Positions 27,443-63,134 of a stretch of DNA of 64,000 bases are shown piece by piece. This DNA comes from Methanobrevibacter ruminantium M1 (GTDB lineage Archaea > Methanobacteriota > Methanobacteria > Methanobacteriales > Methanobacteriaceae). Made by a program: the position numbers and the translations under genes. Position 1 is the first letter of the stretch. Each line of letters begins with the position of its first letter. The notes under the pieces are model-generated. The model searched no databases. It was not told where the DNA came from and saw nothing but the letters and a program-made list of their open reading frames with translations. The stretch is taken from assembly GCF_000024185.1 (NCBI RefSeq), contig NC_013790.1:1201501-1265500 (forward strand), read 5' to 3'.

Positions 27443-30400
27443 ATGAATAATAAGACATTATTTATCATTGGTTTATTCATATGTCTTTTATTTACCATAC
27501 CTATGGTATCAGCTGCAGATGCTGATTCCAATTTAATTGATAATTCAGTAATTGGAACAAATATCAATTCACAAGCAATTACAACATCTGATGCAAGTAT
27601 TGATCACAGTTCAAATGCAAATGCAATCAATACTAATATTAATTCTGATGATATTGTTTCTAATAACAATAACAATAATTCCATAATTGATATTAATGAT
27701 TCCGATATTGAATCTCAAAAGGATGGTTCAAGTAAGAATATTATCAAGTCTACCAATAAAAATACAAATGATTCCAATAATGAAACTGAAGATAATATTC
27801 TAGTAACTGATATCAATTTAGGTAAAAATAATAAAAATTCAAATGATAAAAATATTTTAAGTGCAAATGCACTAACTGCTGATGGAACTGGTACAACTTT
27901 CGGTGACTTGCAATATATCATTGACCAAGATACAACCGGTACCATTACTTTAGATAAAAATTATAAATTCGAATCTGGCACTGATGATGCTTATCTCGAT
28001 GGTATAACTATAAATAAGGCCATTACTATAAATGGTGGAAATCATACTATCGATGGAGACCACTTGGCTAGAATATTTAATATTAATACTGGATCTGCTT
28101 CCGATATTGTTGTTTTAAATAGCATCCATTTCATTAATGGTATGGCAGATGGCAGTGGCGATAATGCCAATGGTGGTGCTATTTATATTGGTTCTCCAAC
28201 TACCTTAAATTATATTACTGCAATCAATTGTACAGCTACTGGTAATGGTGGTGCCATATATGCACATGCAGATGGTACCAATATTGCAGCTAATTACCTA
28301 TACCTATATAACAACACTGCAGTGAATGGTGGTGCATTATATGTTTATGGTAATGATTATACAGTCACAGTAGTGGATGCCCGATACAATTCTGCAAGTG
28401 GAAATGGTGGTGCAATGTATGCATACGGAAACAGTTTCCACCTTAACAAGGTTAACTTCATTAACAATACGGCATACGGTGAAGATTCAGAAGGTGGTGC
28501 AATATTCTTTGCCCATAATTCTGATGATAGTATTGTTAACAATTCCTACTTTGCAAACAACTCTGCAAATAGAGATGGTGGTGCAATAGTTTGGGATCAA
28601 GGTGCACACTTCGGTGAACTTTATAATTCCAAGTTCTACAACAATACTGCTAACCATAGTTCAGGTGCTGTTCGTTGGAGTGGTGAAAATGGTACCATTG
28701 ACAATTGTAGTTTTATTGACAACAAGGCTTATGGAACCAATTTAGAACCTGGTGATTTTGATCAAGGCGGTGACCAGATTCTTGGTGGTAATGGTGGTGC
28801 TATTACTTGGTTAGGTTCTGTGGGTATTATTAGGAATTCAAACTTCACTGATAACTATGCAGAGGCAAATGGTGGAGGTATGTTCCTTATAGCTTTCGAT
28901 ATTAATGACCCTAATTCCATATGTAACGATACCCATATTATCAACTGTAACTTCATTAGTAATGATGCTGGACTTAATGGTGGTGCATTAGATTGGGACG
29001 GTAAGGCTTACAATGGTTCTGTATCTGGTTCCAAATTTTATAACAATACCGCTGCACGTAGTGGAGGTGCTATCTTCTGGAAAGGTAATGGAGGTATCAT
29101 AACACAATCTGACTTTAAGTATAACTCTGCAAATGGTACTCATTTAGTTCAGCCTGAAGGATTCCTTACCCCTGGTGGTAATGGTGGTGCGGTAATCATC
29201 ACAGGTAGTGATGTTAATATTACATATTCCAATTTCACTAACAATAGTGCTAGAGCTCGTGGTGGAGCGGTTTACTTGCAGCTCAATAACAATACCATGG
29301 TTTTGAATTCCTCATTTGAAAATAATAGTGCAGGTACTAATGGTGGAGCACTTGACTTTTATACTGGTGCTGAAAATGGTAAGGTAATTAACTCCACATT
29401 TTTGAATAATACTGCTAATCGTAGTGGTGGTGGTATATACTGGAATGGTGAAAAAGGTGTAATTAATGGTAGTATTTTCTATGATAATAAGGCTTTAAAT
29501 CAAGGTACATACGTAAATGGAAGCCAAATTACCGATGGTGGTGACGGTGGTGCTATCATTTGGACAGGTTCACATGGTACTTTAGAAAATTCAACCTTTA
29601 AAAACAACAATGCTACTAACCGTGGTGGAGCTATTTTCCTTGAGAAACATAATCTGGAGGACCCTAATGATTATTGTAAAAATATTACAGTTTTGAATTG
29701 TACATTTGAAAAGAATTCTGCAGGTACCAATGGTGGTGCTATTGATTGGTTTGAAGGTGCAGAAAATGGAAGAATTATTAATTCAACATTCACTGAAAAC
29801 TATGCACGTAGATCTGGTGGTGCTGTATTCTGGAATGGTGTTAATGGTACTATATCCAATTCAACATTTACATTAAACGAAGTAGGTCTTGAAGGTGCAG
29901 ATACTGGAACTGGTGAGACAATTCCAACTGGAGATGATGATGGTGGAGCTATCAAATGGACAGGTGCAAATGGTTTAATTGAAAATTCCATATTTAGAGA
30001 AAATAAGGCTTTAGAAGGTCGTGGTGGAGCAATTTATCTTGAAAACAATGAGAATGGTACTGTTAACAATTGTACTTTCGAATTGAATAGTGCATTTACA
30101 AATGGTGGTGCTATAGACTGGCACGAAGGTGCAAAGAATGGTCAGCTTATCAATTCCACCTTAACAAACAACACTGCTGGACGTAGTGGTGGTGCAGTAT
30201 ATTGGAATGGACACAATGGTACAATCAATGGAACTAATTTTACAGATAACAAGGCATTAGGAACTCATCACACTGAAGGTCAGACTGAAGGTGGAGATGG
30301 TGGTGCAATCATTTGGACAGGTTCCTATGGTACTATTGAGCTTTCTAACTTCCATAATAACAGTGCACGTTGGAGAGGTGGAGCAATCTTCCTTCAGAAA

Positions 30401-54812: not shown

Positions 54813-56156
54813 ATGGTGATTGTTTCTTATTTAAATCCACTGTCTTCAGAGGGCCAAAACATAGTCAGAGGACTCTCTAGTCTTGACGACATATTCGCCC
54901 CTAATGATGACCTTATTGACATAGTCATTCATAGCCCTCGTCAGACCATTTCAAATCAGGAATATGTGCCAGAGACTCTTGCCGACTTGGCCATCAACAG
55001 AATCAAATGGTATATCGACAAAAAGAACAATAAGGATTTCAATCCAAGCAATTACGCCTATTTTTTTAATGAAGAGATTGCTGAATATGACACTATCGCA
55101 TTCCACATACTTGCCCAGGCTGTTGCAAGCCAATTTAGGGCGGGGTCTCGTGAGATAAAGCTTTTTGTCGAATCCTATGGACTTCTTGTTGAGGACAGAT
55201 TGATAAGATTACTTGAAACAGAAAAAAGAGAGCTTGTTGAAGAGATATTAGGGGACTTTCTTGTTCAGGACGGCATAGAATGGGCCTTCCTGAAGGACTT
55301 AGTTGCAAGCAAAAGAATCTCCCTTACAGACCTTGTATTGGATAATGGTAAGATAGTCCTTGACAGGGAAGAGTTTGTCTATACATTCGGCGATGAGTTC
55401 ACTGACCGCTCTCCAGAGAGAATCTATGACATCCTAATTGGAGACGGCCTTAAGGAAATGATCGTATCCAAGCTTCTCATTCAAAAGTCAGAGGAATATG
55501 TTGCACATATTCAGGATATGCTTAGAACAATTGAGCCACACCCTGCCATTGTAAGGCTTGGTGAGATGCTTGGCGAGACAATTACAGAGCTTATGACAAA
55601 GTACAGCAGCTTCTATGCAGCTGGAGGAGCCTATGGTAATATGGAAATAGGCAAGCTAGTGAGGGAAGCATTCCCTCCATGCATTGCAAACACCGTCGAA
55701 GGGGTCTCTTCAGGGGGAAGAAACGATGCTATAGTCCTTCTTCTTACTTCATTTGTTTCATATGCAAGGCTTTATCCTGGAATATTCGGTGCAGATGCCA
55801 GCGTAAAGGTTTCAGACATTGACTCAAACCTTAACATCACAATGAATGAGATACTTCCTTTGATATATGAGGCAGCGGATAACTGTACTCCTCCCTTGTT
55901 TGAGGACCAGCCACAGGAGAAGATAAACATTACTTCAAAATTAGGCTTTGGGATGCATGAGACTCCAGAGCTGGAGCATGAAGGTGAGACAAAGTGGTAC
56001 ACTCCTATGAGCTGTGAAAAGATTAAGATGCATCTTCCTCAGCTGTGCAAGGAGAATAAGGATTGCGCTAAGATAAACAATCCATTAAGCTATTATTCTA
56101 GGATGAGGTGGATTCTAAGCAAGAAAGGTGGAGAATCTAAATCTGAGGAAGAATAG
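54813..56156 (+). CDS. priL: DNA primase large subunit
   Basis: 447-residue regulatory subunit of the archaeal/eukaryal-type replicative primase, partner of PriS at 62142. The N-terminal helical domain contains SYLNPLSSEGQNIV and DLIDIVIHSP. The C-terminal Fe-S domain has its four cysteines in FPPCIAN, MSCEKIKMHLPQLC and KDC; SYYSRMRW closes it. A GGGAGAGAAAAGC site precedes the ATG. The gene lies 6 kb from priS with accessory genes between. Confidence 0.93.
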   Translation: MVIVSYLNPLSSEGQNIVRGLSSLDDIFAPNDDLIDIVIHSPRQTISNQEYVPETLADLAINRIKWYIDKKNNKDFNPSNYAYFFNEEIAEYDTIAFHILAQAVASQFRAGSREIKLFVESYGLLVEDRLIRLLETEKRELVEEILGDFLVQDGIEWAFLKDLVASKRISLTDLVLDNGKIVLDREEFVYTFGDEFTDRSPERIYDILIGDGLKEMIVSKLLIQKSEEYVAHIQDMLRTIEPHPAIVRLGEMLGETITELMTKYSSFYAAGGAYGNMEIGKLVREAFPPCIANTVEGVSSGGRNDAIVLLLTSFVSYARLYPGIFGADASVKVSDIDSNLNITMNEILPLIYEAADNCTPPLFEDQPQEKINITSKLGFGMHETPELEHEGETKWYTPMSCEKIKMHLPQLCKENKDCAKINNPLSYYSRMRWILSKKGGESKSEEE

Positions 56157-56474
56157 TTGATTATGGTTTTTTTATAGGAATAATCTTTCCTAATTTCACT
56201 GGTTTTCTTCTTCTTTTTTTGTACTGCTTTTTTTTTCAGTTTTAAATTTTATTTTATTTAACTTTCAATTTTTCACAATTTTTCTATCATTTTAATTTAG
56301 TAAGTTTTATATAGTTATTATTAAATAGATATGCATATAAAAAAAATCTAAATTTGCTTTTATTTTAATTAAATTAATTCTTTTTTAAAAAAATCATTTT
56401 TAGATTTTAATAACTTAAAACAATTGAATATGATGCTTGTTTTATTATTTTTTTCTTAATCTTGAGGTGAATTG
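56157..56474. other. intergenic region
   Basis: T-runs after priL and AT-rich promoter DNA for the following gene. No other feature. Confidence 0.4.
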
Positions 56475-58958
56475 ATGTTAAATAGAAAGGCTTTGATTTT
56501 TTCATTGATTGTTTTATTTATGCTATCCATTTCTGCTGTTTCAGCTTCAGATAATACCTTTAATGAGGGCACTGGTTTAAATGAAGATATTGCTGATTTA
56601 AATGATTTCAGTGATTTAAATAGCAATTTTAATAATGGACTTAGTTCTAATGCTGTTCATGGTCTAGATGATGATTCTAATAATAATTTATCATCTGAAA
56701 ATATGATTTCTTCATCTGATGATGAAAAACAAGATGATTTAGAGGGTTCTGATTCAGATTCAATTAAAGACAATCTCAATTCAAATTCTATCAAAGACCA
56801 AAACAATTCTAATTCTAGTACTGCAGACAAGTCCAATACAAAAATCCAAACTAAGATCTCTGCAAAGGACATCAATACATACTATAAGGAAAAATCAAGC
56901 CTAGTATTATATTTAAAGGATAATAAAAATCAGGCCCTTTCAAACAAGACAATCAAACTAAGCCTCAACGGTAAAACATATGCTCAATTGACAGATAAAC
57001 TGGGAAAGGCCTCATTCTCTCTTTATGGCCTTAAACCTAATTCATATGATGCGAAGATAGAATTTTATGGGGATGATGATTATAAGAAGTCTGTTAGGAC
57101 TGTTAAAGTCAATGTAAAGAAGGTAGATATATCAATCAATACAAAGGACTTCTCCACATATCTCAATTCAAACATCTTCTTTTCTGTAAAGGTCTTAAAC
57201 AAGCTTACTAAAAGTCCTGTTGAAGGCATACGGATTCAGTTCAATGTTTATTCATCACAGAAAAACTATAAGAACTACTATGCCCTAAGCGATAAGGATG
57301 GAATCGCCACCTTAAAGAAGAACCTAAAACTAGGCTCATATGATGTTTACACATATGTAAAGGATGATGGCCAAAAGGACTATATAAATTATAGAAACAC
57401 AAAAAATAAGGTCTCAATTAAGATATCCGCTCCTGGAGAGATGGGATGCTCATCAATCTATATCCATGTAAATGAGAATGAAAGCGCTGTCGCCTTTAGA
57501 AGGGATTCCACATATGCAGCTGACTTGTATATAGTCGCTCAAAAGTGGCATGGAAGAAATGCAGTGAAGCAGTATAAGCTTACTGGAACCTACTTTTTCC
57601 ATGCTATCGTCACTTCAGACGGATGGCTGGTAGGAACTGGAGGTGCAGACAATCCTACAATCAATAAGAAGATAGAAAGCCTTGCAGGTCAGATGGTCTC
57701 ATCCAATAACATTCAAAATTCCAAGCTTAATACAATTAGAAAATATGAAAGGTCATTAGGCATAGGACACTTTGCAATAGTGGATCCTAAAGGAAACTAT
57801 GCCATTGTTTGGAAAAGCGGATATGTGAAGGGAAAGCTGAAGAATGGCCAATATATTGATGTTCCTAATTCAAGAGGCATGTTTAGAAAGGGAAGCTATA
57901 AGAGCTTTTCAAAGGACACTGCAACTGCAGCATTAAGGATTGCAGCTACAGACAGATTTGGAGTAAACAGAAGGGACATCACTGTTTTCCATTATAAGAG
58001 AAGCACTAAGAACTACCAGACAAGCGCACAGGTGAAAGCCTATGCTGCAAACGATAAGGGAAACCTTGCAGGAAGACGCACTGGAGGAAAAAGCGATAAC
58101 ATTCATTATAAGAAAACCTATATCAGCAGGTCCAAGCTTCCGGGAACTCCTAATAAAAAGCTCCTTGGAACCCACAGCTTTGGAAAGATCGACACCCTTA
58201 TAAAGACCCAAACTAAGGTTTCAGCTCCTGCCCTAACTGCAAATCAGAATCAGACCAAATACTTTAAGGTGACTGTAAGGAATAAGAAGACAAATAAGAC
58301 CTTAAGAGGAGTTAAAATTAGTCTTAAGGTTTATACAGGCAGTAAGTTTAAGAGCTATGCTGTGACTACCAATAAGAGTGGAGTTGCTAATTTCAATACA
58401 AAGGCTTTAAGTGCAGGAACTCATAATGTGACCATAAGCCAGGCCAATCATAAGTACATAGTTTCTGGAAGTTCTAAGATAGTTATTAAGACGGTTAAAA
58501 AGAATAATACTGTTAATTCTACTAATTCTAGTGTTGTTAATGGTTCTGGAGTAAATGGTAGTTCCAGTTCTAATGCTAGTGTTAACAATGCTTCTGAGCC
58601 TATTAATAATTCCACAACAGACAATTCTAGTGAGAATAATGGTTCTGCAGGTAATAGTTCTAGTTCTGATAGTTCTGTAGGTAATGGTACTGCTTCAGAT
58701 GGTTATGTAGGTAATGGTTCTAGTTCTGATAGTTCTGTAGGTAATGGTACTGCTTCAGATGGTTCTATGGGTAATAGTTCTACTTCAGATGGTTCTGCAG
58801 GTAATGGTTCTAATTTTGCTTCTGTTTTAGATGTTTCTGCAGCTATCAATTCTGATTCTAATGTTGGAAATGACAGTCAAAGCAATTCTAAAACTGAAAC
58901 AAAACTTAGTTCAATGAAAACAGATATTTTAACAAGTTTTATAAAATTAATTAACTAA
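56475..58958 (+). CDS. secreted Ig-repeat protein with possible Ntn-hydrolase domain
   Basis: 827 residues. Signal peptide (1-25, ending VSAS), an Asp/Asn/Ser-rich stretch to ~120, two Ig-like domains (to ~320), a central domain (~320-570), a third Ig-like domain, and a Ser/Asn/Gly-rich repeat tail (20-residue units with SSSDSSVGNG). The central domain begins at Cys325 in MGCSSIYIHV, the only cysteine I see in the protein. An Arg 17 and an Asp 19 residues later (FRRDST) match the C-R-D spacing of C45/C59 Ntn-hydrolases such as bile salt hydrolase, and GHFAIVDPKGNYAIVW follows. No membrane anchor, so it may be released or wall-bound. ATG 56475 follows GAGGTGAATTG. The enzyme assignment is tentative. 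Confidence 0.7.
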   Translation: MLNRKALIFSLIVLFMLSISAVSASDNTFNEGTGLNEDIADLNDFSDLNSNFNNGLSSNAVHGLDDDSNNNLSSENMISSSDDEKQDDLEGSDSDSIKDNLNSNSIKDQNNSNSSTADKSNTKIQTKISAKDINTYYKEKSSLVLYLKDNKNQALSNKTIKLSLNGKTYAQLTDKLGKASFSLYGLKPNSYDAKIEFYGDDDYKKSVRTVKVNVKKVDISINTKDFSTYLNSNIFFSVKVLNKLTKSPVEGIRIQFNVYSSQKNYKNYYALSDKDGIATLKKNLKLGSYDVYTYVKDDGQKDYINYRNTKNKVSIKISAPGEMGCSSIYIHVNENESAVAFRRDSTYAADLYIVAQKWHGRNAVKQYKLTGTYFFHAIVTSDGWLVGTGGADNPTINKKIESLAGQMVSSNNIQNSKLNTIRKYERSLGIGHFAIVDPKGNYAIVWKSGYVKGKLKNGQYIDVPNSRGMFRKGSYKSFSKDTATAALRIAATDRFGVNRRDITVFHYKRSTKNYQTSAQVKAYAANDKGNLAGRRTGGKSDNIHYKKTYISRSKLPGTPNKKLLGTHSFGKIDTLIKTQTKVSAPALTANQNQTKYFKVTVRNKKTNKTLRGVKISLKVYTGSKFKSYAVTTNKSGVANFNTKALSAGTHNVTISQANHKYIVSGSSKIVIKTVKKNNTVNSTNSSVVNGSGVNGSSSSNASVNNASEPINNSTTDNSSENNGSAGNSSSSDSSVGNGTASDGYVGNGSSSDSSVGNGTASDGSMGNSSTSDGSAGNGSNFASVLDVSAAINSDSNVGNDSQSNSKTETKLSSMKTDILTSFIKLIN
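58645..58812 (+). repeat. 30/60-bp coding tandem repeat
   Basis: GGTAATGGTACTGCTTCAGA units repeat in 60-base periods in the Ser/Asn/Gly tail of the surface protein. Confidence 0.9.
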
Positions 58959-59018
58959 CTAAGTATATTTAATCATTTTAATAAAACTTAGTTAAATATC
59001 CTTATTTTTTCATTTTAT

Positions 59019-59312
59019 TTATAATAATATGCTTTTAATGGTATTCATTGCTTCTTCGTCTTCATTTTCACAGAAGTCTTTAAATAATTTTCTTATTTTA
59101 TTGATTTTTTCCTCTTTTGCTTGTATTTCTTCCTCTTTTGTTTGTATTTTTTCGTCTATTGCTTGTATTTCTTCCTCTTTTGCTTGTATTTTTTCGTCTA
59201 TTGCTTGTATTTCTTCCTCTTTTGCTTTGATCTCTTTTTTCAAATATTTATTTCTCTCTTCAATGTGGTGATTTATTGCCATTACTGCATATTCCTCAAA
59301 TGACATGTTCAT
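59019..59312 (-). CDS. small coiled-coil protein equal to the C-terminal part of the neighbouring Rpn nuclease
   Basis: 97 residues. MNMSFEEYAVMAINHHIEER at the start and NKIRKLFKDF at the end match residues 278-368 of the Rpn-family protein at 59607. The middle is a 14-residue coiled-coil repeat (KEEEIQAIDEKIQA), encoded by 42-bp DNA repeats. A strong Shine-Dalgarno GGGAGGAG ends five bases before the ATG (GGAGG at seven). The upstream 59313-59445 is recognisably homologous to the preceding part of the nuclease gene but is riddled with changes. The nuclease half decayed while this small frame stayed open. By analogy with E. coli RpnS, a likely inhibitor of the nuclease. Confidence 0.7.
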   Translation of the reverse strand: MNMSFEEYAVMAINHHIEERNKYLKKEIKAKEEEIQAIDEKIQAKEEEIQAIDEKIQTKEEEIQAKEEKINKIRKLFKDFCENEDEEAMNTIKSILL

Positions 59313-59445
59313 TTAATCTCCTCCCTGAATCTATATAGTGATTTTCCTTCAAATTAGGGGCTGCTAAAGGTATGTTATTAGTTCAATCCAATTTTCTTTC
59401 TTTGATAGTTTTTATCTTTTTTTAGGAATTTTTCTTTAAAATTAG
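59313..59445 (-). pseudogene. decayed remnant of an Rpn-family nuclease gene
   Basis: The minus strand aligns with 59883-60020 of the intact gene (for example CTGCTAAAG and TCAATCCAA read on the plus strand) with indels and no open frame. It is the truncated upstream part of the duplicated gene. Confidence 0.65.
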
Positions 59446-59606
59446 ATAATGCGTACTCTAATAGGTTCTGTTTTTATTATTTTGTTACATGTTTAGTGTA
59501 AATTCTAGTGTAATGTTTCTAAGGGAGAATTGCTTTAACATTATAGTCTGTATGACTAAATTTAAAGGAATGCTTGCGTTCAATTATTAGAATTTTTTAT
59601 TTTATT

Positions 59607-60713
59607 CTATAATAATATGGTTTTAAGGGTATTCATTGCTTTTTTGTCTCCGCTTTCAGAGAAATCTTTAAATAATTTTCTTATTTTATTGATTTCTTCA
59701 TCTTTTGCTTGGATCTCTTTTTTATGCTCTTTGTCTTTTGCTTGGATCTCTTCGTCTTTTTCTTCGAGTTCTTTTTTATGCTCTTTGTCTTTTTCTTCGA
59801 GTTCTTTTTTCAAATGTTTATTTCTCTCTTCAATGTGGTGGTTTATTCCCATTACTGCATATTCCTCTATTGACATGTTCATTTTAAGTTCCTCCTTGAA
59901 TCTTTCTAGTTCTTCTTCTTCAAAATTATGGACTGCTAAAGCCATGTATATCAGTGTCAATCCAACTTTTCTGTCTGTTGATAGGTTTTTTATCTTGTTT
60001 TTTATTTCAACTCCTTTTTTCAATAGTTTTTTTCGTTCATCACCATTGCTTTCCATATAATATAGTAGCTGCAGTTTGACATATGCCTCATCATCAAAGC
60101 AATCGTTCTCAGCCTTAAACTCCAACTCCTTAATCACCTTCTCTGTGTTAAAGCAGGTTGTGCTTCTCTTGTTTATCCTGTAGCGATACTCCTTATCATA
60201 TCCATATGGTTCATCATTATCGGGATCATCATTTATGGTTATCATTATAACTATGACTTTCTGCCCCTTCTTTTTTCTGTGCAGGGTCGTCTGATAGTCT
60301 CCAAATCTTATCTTATCCTTTTTTGCAGGGCCTGAGCTTTGAAATTCGATAATGTAGATTTTTCCGTCTTCAGCTTCTATTACCAAGTCGCAATAGCTTT
60401 GGTTCAATGTCTGATCTAAGATTTCAACATTTAAGAATTGCTTGAATATTATATGCTTTAATCCAAAGACATTCAAAAATGCCTGTATATTGTTCTCTGC
60501 AATGAACTTGAAGATTCTGTCATGTACTTTATTAATTTTCTCCTTTTTAAATTGCTTTGCAGGCTCAAAAGGAAATTCTTCACAGGCAATCTTTTTTAAT
60601 TCTCCATTTTCATCTACTAATACTTTATATACTTTGCCTTCTTCTGTTTCGTAGTATGATACTGTATTGTTATTTTCGGTTGAGATTTGATTTAACTTTT
60701 TTAAATTCACCAT
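59607..60713 (-). CDS. Rpn-family recombination-promoting nuclease (PD-(D/E)XK, transposase-like)
   Basis: 368 residues. The nuclease core has Asp109 (YCDLVIEA), Glu123 and Gln125 (IYIIEFQSSG), the D-ExQ form of the PD-(D/E)XK fold seen in Rpn/YhgA-type proteins. An extra N-terminal ~55 residues precede HDRIFKFIAEN. A helical domain (STDRKVGLTLIYMALAVHNF, FEEEELERFKEEL) leads to a Lys/Glu coiled coil. AAGGAGG at 59891-59897 and ATG at 59882 form an internal start for residues 278-368. E. coli homologues are autotoxic DNA endonucleases restrained by such a C-terminal product. No terminal repeats of a mobile element were seen. Confidence 0.8.
   Translation of the reverse strand: MVNLKKLNQISTENNNTVSYYETEEGKVYKVLVDENGELKKIACEEFPFEPAKQFKKEKINKVHDRIFKFIAENNIQAFLNVFGLKHIIFKQFLNVEILDQTLNQSYCDLVIEAEDGKIYIIEFQSSGPAKKDKIRFGDYQTTLHRKKKGQKVIVIMITINDDPDNDEPYGYDKEYRYRINKRSTTCFNTEKVIKELEFKAENDCFDDEAYVKLQLLYYMESNGDERKKLLKKGVEIKNKIKNLSTDRKVGLTLIYMALAVHNFEEEELERFKEELKMNMSIEEYAVMGINHHIEERNKHLKKELEEKDKEHKKELEEKDEEIQAKDKEHKKEIQAKDEEINKIRKLFKDFSESGDKKAMNTLKTILL
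59891..59897 (-). promoter_or_regulatory. internal Shine-Dalgarno in the Rpn gene
   Basis: AAGGAGG on the minus strand ends eight bases before the in-frame ATG at 59882-59880. It would give a 91-residue C-terminal protein. Confidence 0.6.
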
Positions 60714-60775
60714 ATGAACAATCCTTTATTTTTTTCTTTTGGTGAATAAAGTATTTAAATCTTTTCTTTTTTGAA

Positions 60776-60833
60776 TTCAAGTAATTTTAACACTCTAAAG
60801 TCAAAATTGTTACGATATCGTAACAATTTGCTA
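60776..60833 (-). repeat. dispersed intergenic element upstream of the Rpn gene
   Basis: The minus strand matches 54454-54511 (plus) at 48 of 58 positions. A further shared CAATTTTTACTTGAA lies just outside it (60836-60850). Confidence 0.8.
60804..60829. promoter_or_regulatory. 26-bp perfect palindrome, likely operator
   Basis: Arms AAATTGTTACGAT and ATCGTAACAATTT with no spacer, about 90 bases before the Rpn start. GTAACAAT half-sites also occur at 54.5 kb. Confidence 0.5.
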
Positions 60834-61016
60834 TTTTCAAGTAAAAATTGATGTGAAAGTGTGAAATTGCTTTGTTCGTATGAAAATAAACAAAATTCCC
60901 CTTCCATTTTCATCTTCTTTTATTGAAATAAAATGGATTTTTCCTTATTTTTCATGATGATATATTCGTGGGTTTGTGTTTTATCTTATATAAACTTATG
61001 GTGGTTTTTTAGCAGT

Positions 61017-61041
61017 TTTACTATTTATAATGTATAGTAAA
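61017..61041. promoter_or_regulatory. interrupted palindrome
   Basis: TTTACTAT and ATAGTAAA arms around nine bases; related to the site at 52330. Confidence 0.35.
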
Positions 61042-61250
61042 CCAGAATTAGGTGGTTTTATTTCTTTGAGGGGGTTTTAAGACTTGTTCGATAGCTATTT
61101 TAACGATTTTTTTCTGTTATTTTTTAAGCTTTTTTAGCAATTTTTCCATAATTTTTCGATTGATCTTTCTAATCTATCAAATTTTTTGCAATTTTTTTTG
61201 CAAATTTTTATGAATTTTTTTCTCGACTTTTTTTATTTTTTCTCAATTTT

Positions 61251-61335
61251 TTCCAAAATCAAATAAATTCTTTTATCAATATTTTTCCCCTATTTTTTCC
61301 AAAATCAAATAAATTCTTTTATCAATATTTTTCCC
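61251..61335. repeat. 46-bp direct repeat
   Basis: Two copies starting TTCCAAAATCAAATAAATTC at 61251 and 61297, just downstream of the minus-strand gene ending at 61356. Confidence 0.9.
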
Positions 61336-61355
61336 TTTATAAATCGATCTTTTGT

Positions 61356-61847
61356 TTAATAGGTATAGTCATCCTCATCATAATAGTTTAGGATAATGGA
61401 ATGCTCAAAGTCCTGATAGTTATTGAAATGATACTCCTGGTAGTCTTCAATCAGGATGGAAATGATTCTTTCCTTCTCATCTATTGATTCCATCATGCAG
61501 AATTCGCTTAAAAGCTCTGGATCATAGTCATCAAAGTCCTCATCCTCAAGCTCCTTTCTATCCTTGAACTCTTGAAACCTATTGTATTCGTCCTCGCTTA
61601 GAAGGTCCTCCTCATCAAATAGGTCCTCATGGCTTTCTATCTTATAGAGCTCTATGTGATTGTTGTCATGGTCCAGCTCCAACAGCTCATTTGATTTTAG
61701 TGAAATTCCATAGACCCTTCCGCTTTTAAGGTCAATGACGGTCTTTCCGGTTGATTCGTACCTGGTCCAATTGTCCAATGCAGGCTCTATAATCTCCCTT
61801 ATTGTAAGGCTTTCTATAAGTCGCCTGAGCTCTTCTTCACTTAGCAT
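61356..61847 (-). CDS. acidic hypothetical protein
   Basis: 163 residues, very rich in Glu, Asp and Tyr, no signal peptide or membrane segment. It opens MLSEEELRRLIESLTIREII and contains YESTGKTVIDLKSGRVYGIS, a short beta segment also vaguely reminiscent of the N-terminal part of the Rpn protein (EEGKVYKVLVDENGEL). The last 60 residues hold no motif I recognise. It lies between the Rpn gene region and priS; both flanks carry tandem repeats of 46-49 bases. Function unknown. Confidence 0.6.
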   Translation of the reverse strand: MLSEEELRRLIESLTIREIIEPALDNWTRYESTGKTVIDLKSGRVYGISLKSNELLELDHDNNHIELYKIESHEDLFDEEDLLSEDEYNRFQEFKDRKELEDEDFDDYDPELLSEFCMMESIDEKERIISILIEDYQEYHFNNYQDFEHSIILNYYDEDDYTY

Positions 61848-61863
61848 TTAAATCATCCTTAAC

Positions 61864-61990
61864 TTGTTTTTGCTTATTTTGAATCTGTTTAAATCAATTA
61901 TTTTCTTTTAATTTGTTTTTGCTTATTTTGAATCTGGTTTAATCAATTATTTTCTTTTAATTTGTTTTTGCTTATTTTCAATCTAATTAA
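61864..61990. repeat. 49-bp tandem repeat
   Basis: Copies at 61864, 61913 and 61962 (partial), starting TTGTTTTTGCTTATTTTGAA, between divergent genes. Confidence 0.9.
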
Positions 61991-62058
61991 ATATGATTAA
62001 ATCAATCTTTTTTACATGAAAAACTTAGTTTTTCTTGTTTTATAATAAGTTTTAAGTA

Positions 62059-62068
62059 TTATATAAAT
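62059..62068 (+). promoter_or_regulatory. candidate TATA box of priS
   Basis: TTATATAAAT, about 75 bases before the priS ATG. Confidence 0.4.
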
Positions 62069-62141
62069 CATAAATATTTTTAAGTTTTTAAGGAAAAAAT
62101 CTGTTTTTTTAAAATGAATTAAATTATTAAAGAGTGATTTC

Positions 62142-63134
62142 ATGTATGGTCCGTCAAGCTTGGCAGAAAGAAGAATATATTACAGAGAGGAATGGTCGGA
62201 TAAGGACCTTCCAGACTTCATAGCCCAAGGAATCACCAAAAGGGAATTCGGTTTCGACCATCTTGGAAACGGTCCTAACGACAGATATAAGGTCTTCAAG
62301 GGAACAGACACCCTAAGAAGATTCTTAAGATACAAGACACCATTTGCAGCATACATTTCAGTGGCCTTCTATCAGAACCCTAGAAAGAGGGGAGGCTGGG
62401 AAAAGGCAGAATACATCTTTGACATAGACGCCAAGGACCTTCCAATCAGATCATGCAACTGCGACGGAGTATGCGAGATATGTCTTGGAGAGGCCTTGGA
62501 AAGGGTCAACATAATGCTTGACACATTGAAGGGAGACCTGGGATTGAAGAACATACATCTCATCTATTCAGGCAGGGGATTTCATATAAGGATATTGGAT
62601 CCCGATATGATGGAGGCCGACAGCGACCTGAGGGCTGAGGTATTGAAGTATGTTGCTGGAGCTGAGGTTCCAAGGGCACAGTATCCTAACATAGTCCCTG
62701 GAGCCAAGCCATTGAACTTCGAGCACTTCTCCATCCCTATAGCATATCCTGCAGTCTTTACAAACAAGGTTAAATATAATATATTCCACCTTAGGGGAGA
62801 TGAGACAATAGATGGAATAAACAATAGGCTCCTTAAGGACATAATAAAAAACAGGGAATTTCTTATTGACGACAAGTGGGGACTCTTTAAGGAAAGGATA
62901 GGTCCAAGGAGATATAAGGATATGGTGAATGCGATGGCAAGGGTGAACCTTGCCACTATAGATGCAAAGGTTACAATAGACCTTAAGAGAATTTTGAGGC
63001 TGCCGTCATCCCTCCACTCAAAGGTAAGCATGAAGTGTGTGGAGGTAAAGAATCCTGAGACCTTCGATCCATTCAAGCATGCAGTTCCTAAGTTTGTATA
63101 TGAGAGAAAGGATGAGGAGATTGCTCAAAACTAG
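62142..63134 (+). CDS. priS: DNA primase small (catalytic) subunit
   Basis: 330-residue catalytic subunit that synthesises primers with PriL. SSLAERRIYYREEW at the N-terminus, the metal-binding YIFDIDAKD (DxD), a zinc knuckle CNCDGVCEICLG, IHLIYSGRGFHI, and the third acidic region ending RLPSSLHSKVSMKC are all present. Full length. The ATG follows AGAGTGATTTC. Higher GC than its surroundings, as expected for a conserved gene. PriL is at 54813 in the same direction but separated by accessory genes. Confidence 0.95.
   Translation: MYGPSSLAERRIYYREEWSDKDLPDFIAQGITKREFGFDHLGNGPNDRYKVFKGTDTLRRFLRYKTPFAAYISVAFYQNPRKRGGWEKAEYIFDIDAKDLPIRSCNCDGVCEICLGEALERVNIMLDTLKGDLGLKNIHLIYSGRGFHIRILDPDMMEADSDLRAEVLKYVAGAEVPRAQYPNIVPGAKPLNFEHFSIPIAYPAVFTNKVKYNIFHLRGDETIDGINNRLLKDIIKNREFLIDDKWGLFKERIGPRRYKDMVNAMARVNLATIDAKVTIDLKRILRLPSSLHSKVSMKCVEVKNPETFDPFKHAVPKFVYERKDEEIAQN

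Follow-up and report, generated by a model that had tools for sequence, protein, structure and literature searches.

The closest described systems to the locus considered here are the Rpn genes of Escherichia coli, each of which encodes a long toxic nuclease (RpnL) together with an internal inhibitor (RpnS) (PMC10327210). RpnS pairs specifically with its own RpnL and blocks DNA cleavage, and a single additional four-residue repeat is enough to abolish the inhibition (PMC10327210). Stand-alone RpnS genes have also been described in E. coli, namely ypaA (encoding RpnES), which lies downstream of rpnE, and a copy of RpnCS that follows rpnC in some strains (PMC10327210), and to this extent the mechanism, the internal start and the stand-alone copies are all already known in bacteria. 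As regards archaea, the only mention in Zhong et al. (2023) is that the Rpn family was noted in two archaeal phyla (PMC10327210), and literature searches of open-access papers found no other reports on archaeal Rpn.

The stretch of DNA analysed (here called the window) comprises 64,000 nucleotides, corresponding to positions 1201501–1265500 of the 2,937,203-bp single-contig genome of Methanobrevibacter ruminantium M1. The relevant features, numbered from the first letter of the window, are the following.

59607–60713, minus strand: putative Rpn-like PD-(D/E)XK nuclease (RpnL), 368 aa (open reading frame, invariant columns, hhalign alignment to E. coli Rpn, and a model with weak structural matches)
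59607–59882, minus strand: predicted intragenic C-terminal protein (RpnS-like), 91 aa, from the conserved Met278 (sequence and conservation)
59891–59897, minus strand: internal Shine-Dalgarno AAGGAGG, spacer of 8 nt to the internal ATG at 59882 (pairing -10.0 kcal/mol)
59019–59312, minus strand: stand-alone RpnS-like ORF, 97 aa, with 66% identity to the C-terminal part of the nuclease (ORF, alignment)
59318–59325, minus strand: Shine-Dalgarno GGGAGGAG of the stand-alone ORF, spacer of 5 nt to the ATG at 59312 (pairing -10.5 kcal/mol)
59313–59423, minus strand: decayed copy of the nuclease gene (the stretch just before the internal start), with 7 frame-breaking indels (DNA alignment)
59104–59229, minus strand: tandem repeat with a 42-bp unit (14 residues, two heptads) within the stand-alone coil, 3.0 copies, 94% match
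59691–59797, minus strand: repeat with a 54-bp unit (18 residues) within the C-terminal coil of the nuclease

Pairing energies were calculated against an anti-Shine-Dalgarno tail assumed to be the canonical UCACCUCCU rather than read from the host 16S, genes of the window being seen to use GGAG/GGTG sites. On this basis the nuclease's own start is weak, at -3.8 kcal/mol against -10.0 for the internal and -10.5 for the stand-alone start, while the median for the long ORFs of the window is -6.05 kcal/mol. The nuclease gene and its copy are bracketed by genes for the large (54813–56156, plus strand) and small (62142–63134, plus strand) subunits of DNA primase, and this interval (54813–63134) also contains an 828-aa surface protein with Ig-like/SpaA domains. 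A 163-aa acidic ORF lying immediately upstream of the nuclease gene has no match among curated family models and is flanked by short AT-rich direct repeats (61234–61335 and 61859–61992, with units of 46 and 49 bp). Elsewhere in the window, at 27443–50416, are two very large ORFs of 4,929 and 2,719 aa, the second of which is rich in Ig-like repeats in the style of an adhesin.

The initial annotation, made from the sequence of the window, called the longer gene an archaeal Rpn nuclease, a description that holds at the level of its homologue group but finds no counterpart in curated models of the protein itself. No Rpn model in Pfam, NCBIfam (at E up to 1) or PADLOC matches the window nuclease, and no relative emerged when the single sequence was searched against viral contigs, plasmids, phages and genome contigs; a narrow-alignment search for related loci returned three Methanobrevibacter loci. 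Among the 23 Methanobacteriaceae homologues that were aligned with it, which are 17–33% identical to it and which define the conservation columns used below, nine match TIGR01784 (the best at 9.6e-10), and in hhalign the group profile can be aligned to E. coli Rpn (probability 91.5%, E-value 8.7e-7) with the catalytic motifs in register. The D and ExQ motifs of a PD-(D/E)XK core are thus found in the group profile together with homology to E. coli Rpn, and in the window protein D109, E123-x-Q125, R136 and Y140 are all intact, D109, E123 and Y140 being invariant among the homologues. An AlphaFold model (from a four-row alignment; mean pLDDT 72) shows a PD-(D/E)XK-like order of elements, followed by helices and then by one long coil that begins near the internal Met; among PDB structures it comes closest to NucS/EndoMS and a Cas4-family protein, EcoO109I ranking further down, all with weak E-values (E 0.05). 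Comparison at the level of the gene group supports the view that the window gene is related to Rpn and shares a conserved internal start.

That internal start had been proposed from an AAGGAGG lying eight bases before an in-frame ATG at 59882, giving a 91-residue product, and these coordinates check. Lack of conservation in relatives had been named as the observation that would count against it, and conservation was examined using 120 unique, diverged nuclease genes from genomes of one archaeal family, the Methanobacteriaceae. A start codon lies within 6 codons of the junction between nuclease and C-terminal segment in every one of the 120 (119 ATG and 1 GTG), and Shine-Dalgarno pairing of -6 kcal/mol or better occurs at this start in 92% of them, as against 5% of 571 other internal ATGs; in matching 12-codon windows taken elsewhere in the same genes, the combination of ATG and Shine-Dalgarno appears in 1.5% of 2,430 cases. 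At the protein level, 90% or more of the 23 aligned homologues have Met278, a conservation that matches that of catalytic residues. As positive controls, E. coli rpnA, rpnB, rpnC and rpnE all have the same junction ATG, with pairing from -7.1 to -11.1. Across the homologues pairing is tighter at the internal site than at the best site for the start of the full-length gene (medians -8.15 and -6.65; paired p 1e-4), as would be expected if the inhibitor should exceed the nuclease. The comparison of the 120 homologues excludes chance as the origin of the internal start, the opposite of the outcome that would have counted against it.

A different way of accounting for the same site would be that Shine-Dalgarno and ATG simply follow from the residues (K-E-E-x-x-M) found at the start of a helix, Met278 being a structural residue and the start untranslated. 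Residue choice does contribute, since synonymous recoding alone yields a site of -6 or better in 47% of all genes and in about a third of cluster representatives. However, when one gene is taken per 45%-identity cluster, the site is present in 38 of 42 representatives, where recoding gives 13 (maximum 21 in 3,000 runs). The four residues ahead of the junction start are, moreover, nearly all different between clusters, with 40 distinct combinations among the 42 representatives (VGGN, LGDR, EETK, GELN, ELIE and so on), and the recurring GGAG or GGTG core falls in differing reading frames across homologues, so that what is kept is a DNA site and not a peptide. The sole exception to ATG is GTG, itself a start codon, and the E. 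coli genes for which internal initiation is proven (PMC10327210) share the arrangement. An origin as a by-product of the protein sequence is thus very improbable, and the junction Shine-Dalgarno and start are, on this comparative evidence, constrained at the level of DNA. The internal start known from the Rpn family is in this sense present in the window gene both in its sequence and in its conservation.

The stand-alone ORF at 59312 had been described as encoding the same segment as the nuclease C-terminus with its own ribosome site, and this proves correct: the 97-aa and 91-aa sequences align end to end with 66% amino-acid identity, and the small ORF is preceded by GGGAGGAG-N5-ATG. Lying downstream of its parent, derived from the parent's C-terminus and carrying its own ribosome site, it has the attributes of a gene of the ypaA type. 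DNA homology to the nuclease gene continues for 111 bp upstream of the small ORF (59313–59423), where it is interrupted by 7 frame-breaking indels; the degraded nuclease copy of the initial annotation is therefore real, but its outer limit in the alignment made here is 59423 and not 59445. Within the 294 bp of the small ORF, in contrast, all changes of length are in frame, with none that is frame-breaking net, a difference from the upstream stretch that is significant at p 1e-4, or at 2e-3 if the coil is excluded. The 42-bp repeats that had been seen in the stand-alone coil are likewise there.

Whether the small frame is under selection, as had been suggested, is a question on which different measures speak with different force. 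For the window pair dN/dS comes to 0.45 (interval 0.15–1.9), which fails on its own to reject neutrality, and it is the indel asymmetry, together with the pooled loci described below, that gives support to selection on the 97-aa frame at the level of sequence change. It might be argued instead that a partial duplication left this ORF behind as a remnant in decay, its frame being open only because a coil rich in lysine and glutamate rarely mutates to stops; the pairwise dN/dS is compatible with such neutrality, about half of neutral simulations remain stop-free, and broken copies do exist in relatives (loci L025, L062, L101 and L151). Against this stand the uneven distribution of indels seen in the window (p 1e-4 to 2e-3), the retention of a Shine-Dalgarno at -10.5, and the behaviour of copies at other archaeal loci. 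A search of DNA made without regard to reading frame found copies at 41 of the 116 loci with enough sequence, and in 33 of these 41 the frame is intact, compared with 18 expected and at most 25 in 400 runs, an expectation that assigns half of the substitutions to the copy and allows 0.1 indel for each substitution, and from which there is no rejection if indels are ignored. In addition, the frequency with which duplicated segments begin at the Shine-Dalgarno is well above that expected by chance. Taken with the copies at other loci, a decaying remnant is an unlikely explanation of the 97-aa ORF.

The same set of loci shows how general the arrangement is. Same-strand downstream frames resembling the C-terminus of the adjacent nuclease occur at 38 of the 116, so that a stand-alone copy of the C-terminal segment in archaea, represented in the window by an intact ORF, is found at about a third of archaeal loci. 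Of the 41 copies from the frame-blind search, 20 have homology that begins 0–20 bp upstream of the internal ATG and 29 have homology that begins 0–60 bp upstream of it, so that the part kept is mostly the ribosome site and the small frame, an arrangement also seen in E. coli ypaA. Shine-Dalgarno pairing of -6 or better is present in 60% of copies that have a start codon, which is weaker than at the internal starts. Pooled over copies and parents, dN/dS is 0.43 (0.35–0.52), with a bootstrap probability of 6% for a value of 0.5 or more; since 0.5 is the lowest value expected for a copy evolving neutrally beside a constrained parent, this leans towards constraint on the copies. On these computations stand-alone copies are frequent and mostly keep ATG and frame. 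Some loci (L059, L068, L120, L132 and L144) carry two tandem stand-alone RpnS-like frames of unequal length behind one nuclease gene. Others (L029, at 229–1764, and L087, L094 and L079) have younger partial duplications in which the nuclease half has kept some 170–220 bp, largely in frame, upstream of the small frame, and these are possible intermediates towards the arrangement in the window. Some Methanobrevibacter genomes (G012, G055, G091 and others) have a dozen or more rpn-like genes.

The notion that a stand-alone copy is an extra twist of the archaeal locus does not survive, such copies having already been described in E. coli after rpnE (ypaA) and, in some strains, after rpnC (PMC10327210). 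There are nevertheless differences. Like ypaA, the window copy is a same-strand downstream copy of the C-terminus with its own Shine-Dalgarno, but ypaA starts at its Shine-Dalgarno, whereas the window still shows the decayed remnant of the nuclease half upstream, and the coils of copy and parent (66% identity) differ in length; further, RefSeq marks rpnE as inactive and ypaA as a pseudogene, while the window nuclease keeps its catalytic residues.

The C-terminal segments themselves call for some care. A profile of archaeal C-termini (A5) matches the structure of RpnAS (PDB 7TH0) at an E-value of 4.8e-5, so that by computation the C-termini of most archaeal members are homologous to this solved E. 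coli domain. The window C-terminus is not picked up by profile A5, and the RpnAS-like three-helix domain was not found in the window protein, whose C-terminal segment forms a plain coil; searched against other genomes of the archaeal family, it gave only weak matches to coils. Length in the window pair varies by units of 7/14 and 18 residues, and in the archaeal family mostly by multiples of four. The stand-alone coil consists of six heptads (42 residues) and that of the nuclease of 18-residue units (36 residues, 6 shorter), and because the two differ in both period and length it is doubtful that the 97-aa protein pairs with the neighbouring nuclease: a coil of six heptads may simply not fit one built of 18-residue units.

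This raises the possibility that the stand-alone protein neutralises other Rpn alleles, whether incoming or carried by other strains, or has a regulatory role as part of a mixed dimer, with repeat number setting its target. In favour of this are the mismatch of the window coils, the abolition of cross-inhibition in E. coli by one extra repeat (PMC10327210), and the lengths found across loci, where copy and cognate parent segment are equal in 1 of 33 cases and a multiple of four residues accounts for 22 of the 32 differences (p 2e-7). However, the internal segments of related genes (at least 75% identical) are also often unequal, being of equal length in 5 of 28 (p 0.085 against the copy–parent pairs), and fast slippage without selection may suffice, so that selection for a mismatch of repeat number between copy and parent is suggestive and a role directed at other alleles is possible though the less probable case. 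A stronger form of the idea, in which stand-alone RpnS genes would be a selected immunity repertoire, repeatedly budded off at the internal start and blocking foreign or sister Rpn alleles instead of the parent because their repeat number is kept different from the parent's, must be considered improbable; if true, it would make Rpn loci a system for distinguishing self from non-self in archaea.

The reading preferred here, and one that is probably correct as a whole, is that the locus is an archaeal Rpn toxin–antitoxin gene with an internal RpnS and a duplicated, free-standing RpnS. The full-length protein would be the toxin RpnL, a PD-(D/E)XK DNA nuclease, and a second ribosome entry at the AAGGAGG-ATG (59882) would yield the C-terminal coil alone, as RpnS; this would pair with the C-terminal coil of RpnL and hold the nuclease off until infection or stress released it. 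A partial tandem duplication would then have given rise to the free-standing RpnS gene at 59019–59312, the nuclease half of the duplicate decaying while ribosome site and frame were retained, and its product would provide extra antitoxin or an antitoxin of changed specificity. Internal translation, nuclease toxicity, inhibition and phage defence in archaea are here inferred from E. coli, whose mechanism is carried over by homology, the archaeal C-terminal profile matching the RpnAS structure.

Set beside E. coli RpnL/RpnS (rpnA–rpnE; COG5464, TIGR01784), the archaeal genes share a PD-(D/E)XK core with ExQ, a variable C-terminal coil, a junction Shine-Dalgarno and ATG, an RpnAS-type C-terminus in most members and four-residue length variation in the family. 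They differ in having an archaeal host and in that their members are only some 17–33% identical to the window protein, while the window C-terminus is a plain heptad or 18-residue coil lacking an RpnAS-type domain. Another archaeal defence gene with internal in-frame initiation belongs to an unrelated family, and its small product is part of an interference complex and not an inhibitor.

What is added here, by computation, is that both the internal start and the Shine-Dalgarno in front of it have been kept across the archaeal family, so that the design is near-universal in these archaea (one family, Methanobacteriaceae), with the nested frame freed at about a third of loci. The gene-within-a-gene design of antitoxin would in this way be extended from bacteria to archaea, with statistical support from 120 genes, and the many natural length variants in Methanobrevibacter offer material for studying how the coil sets antitoxin specificity.
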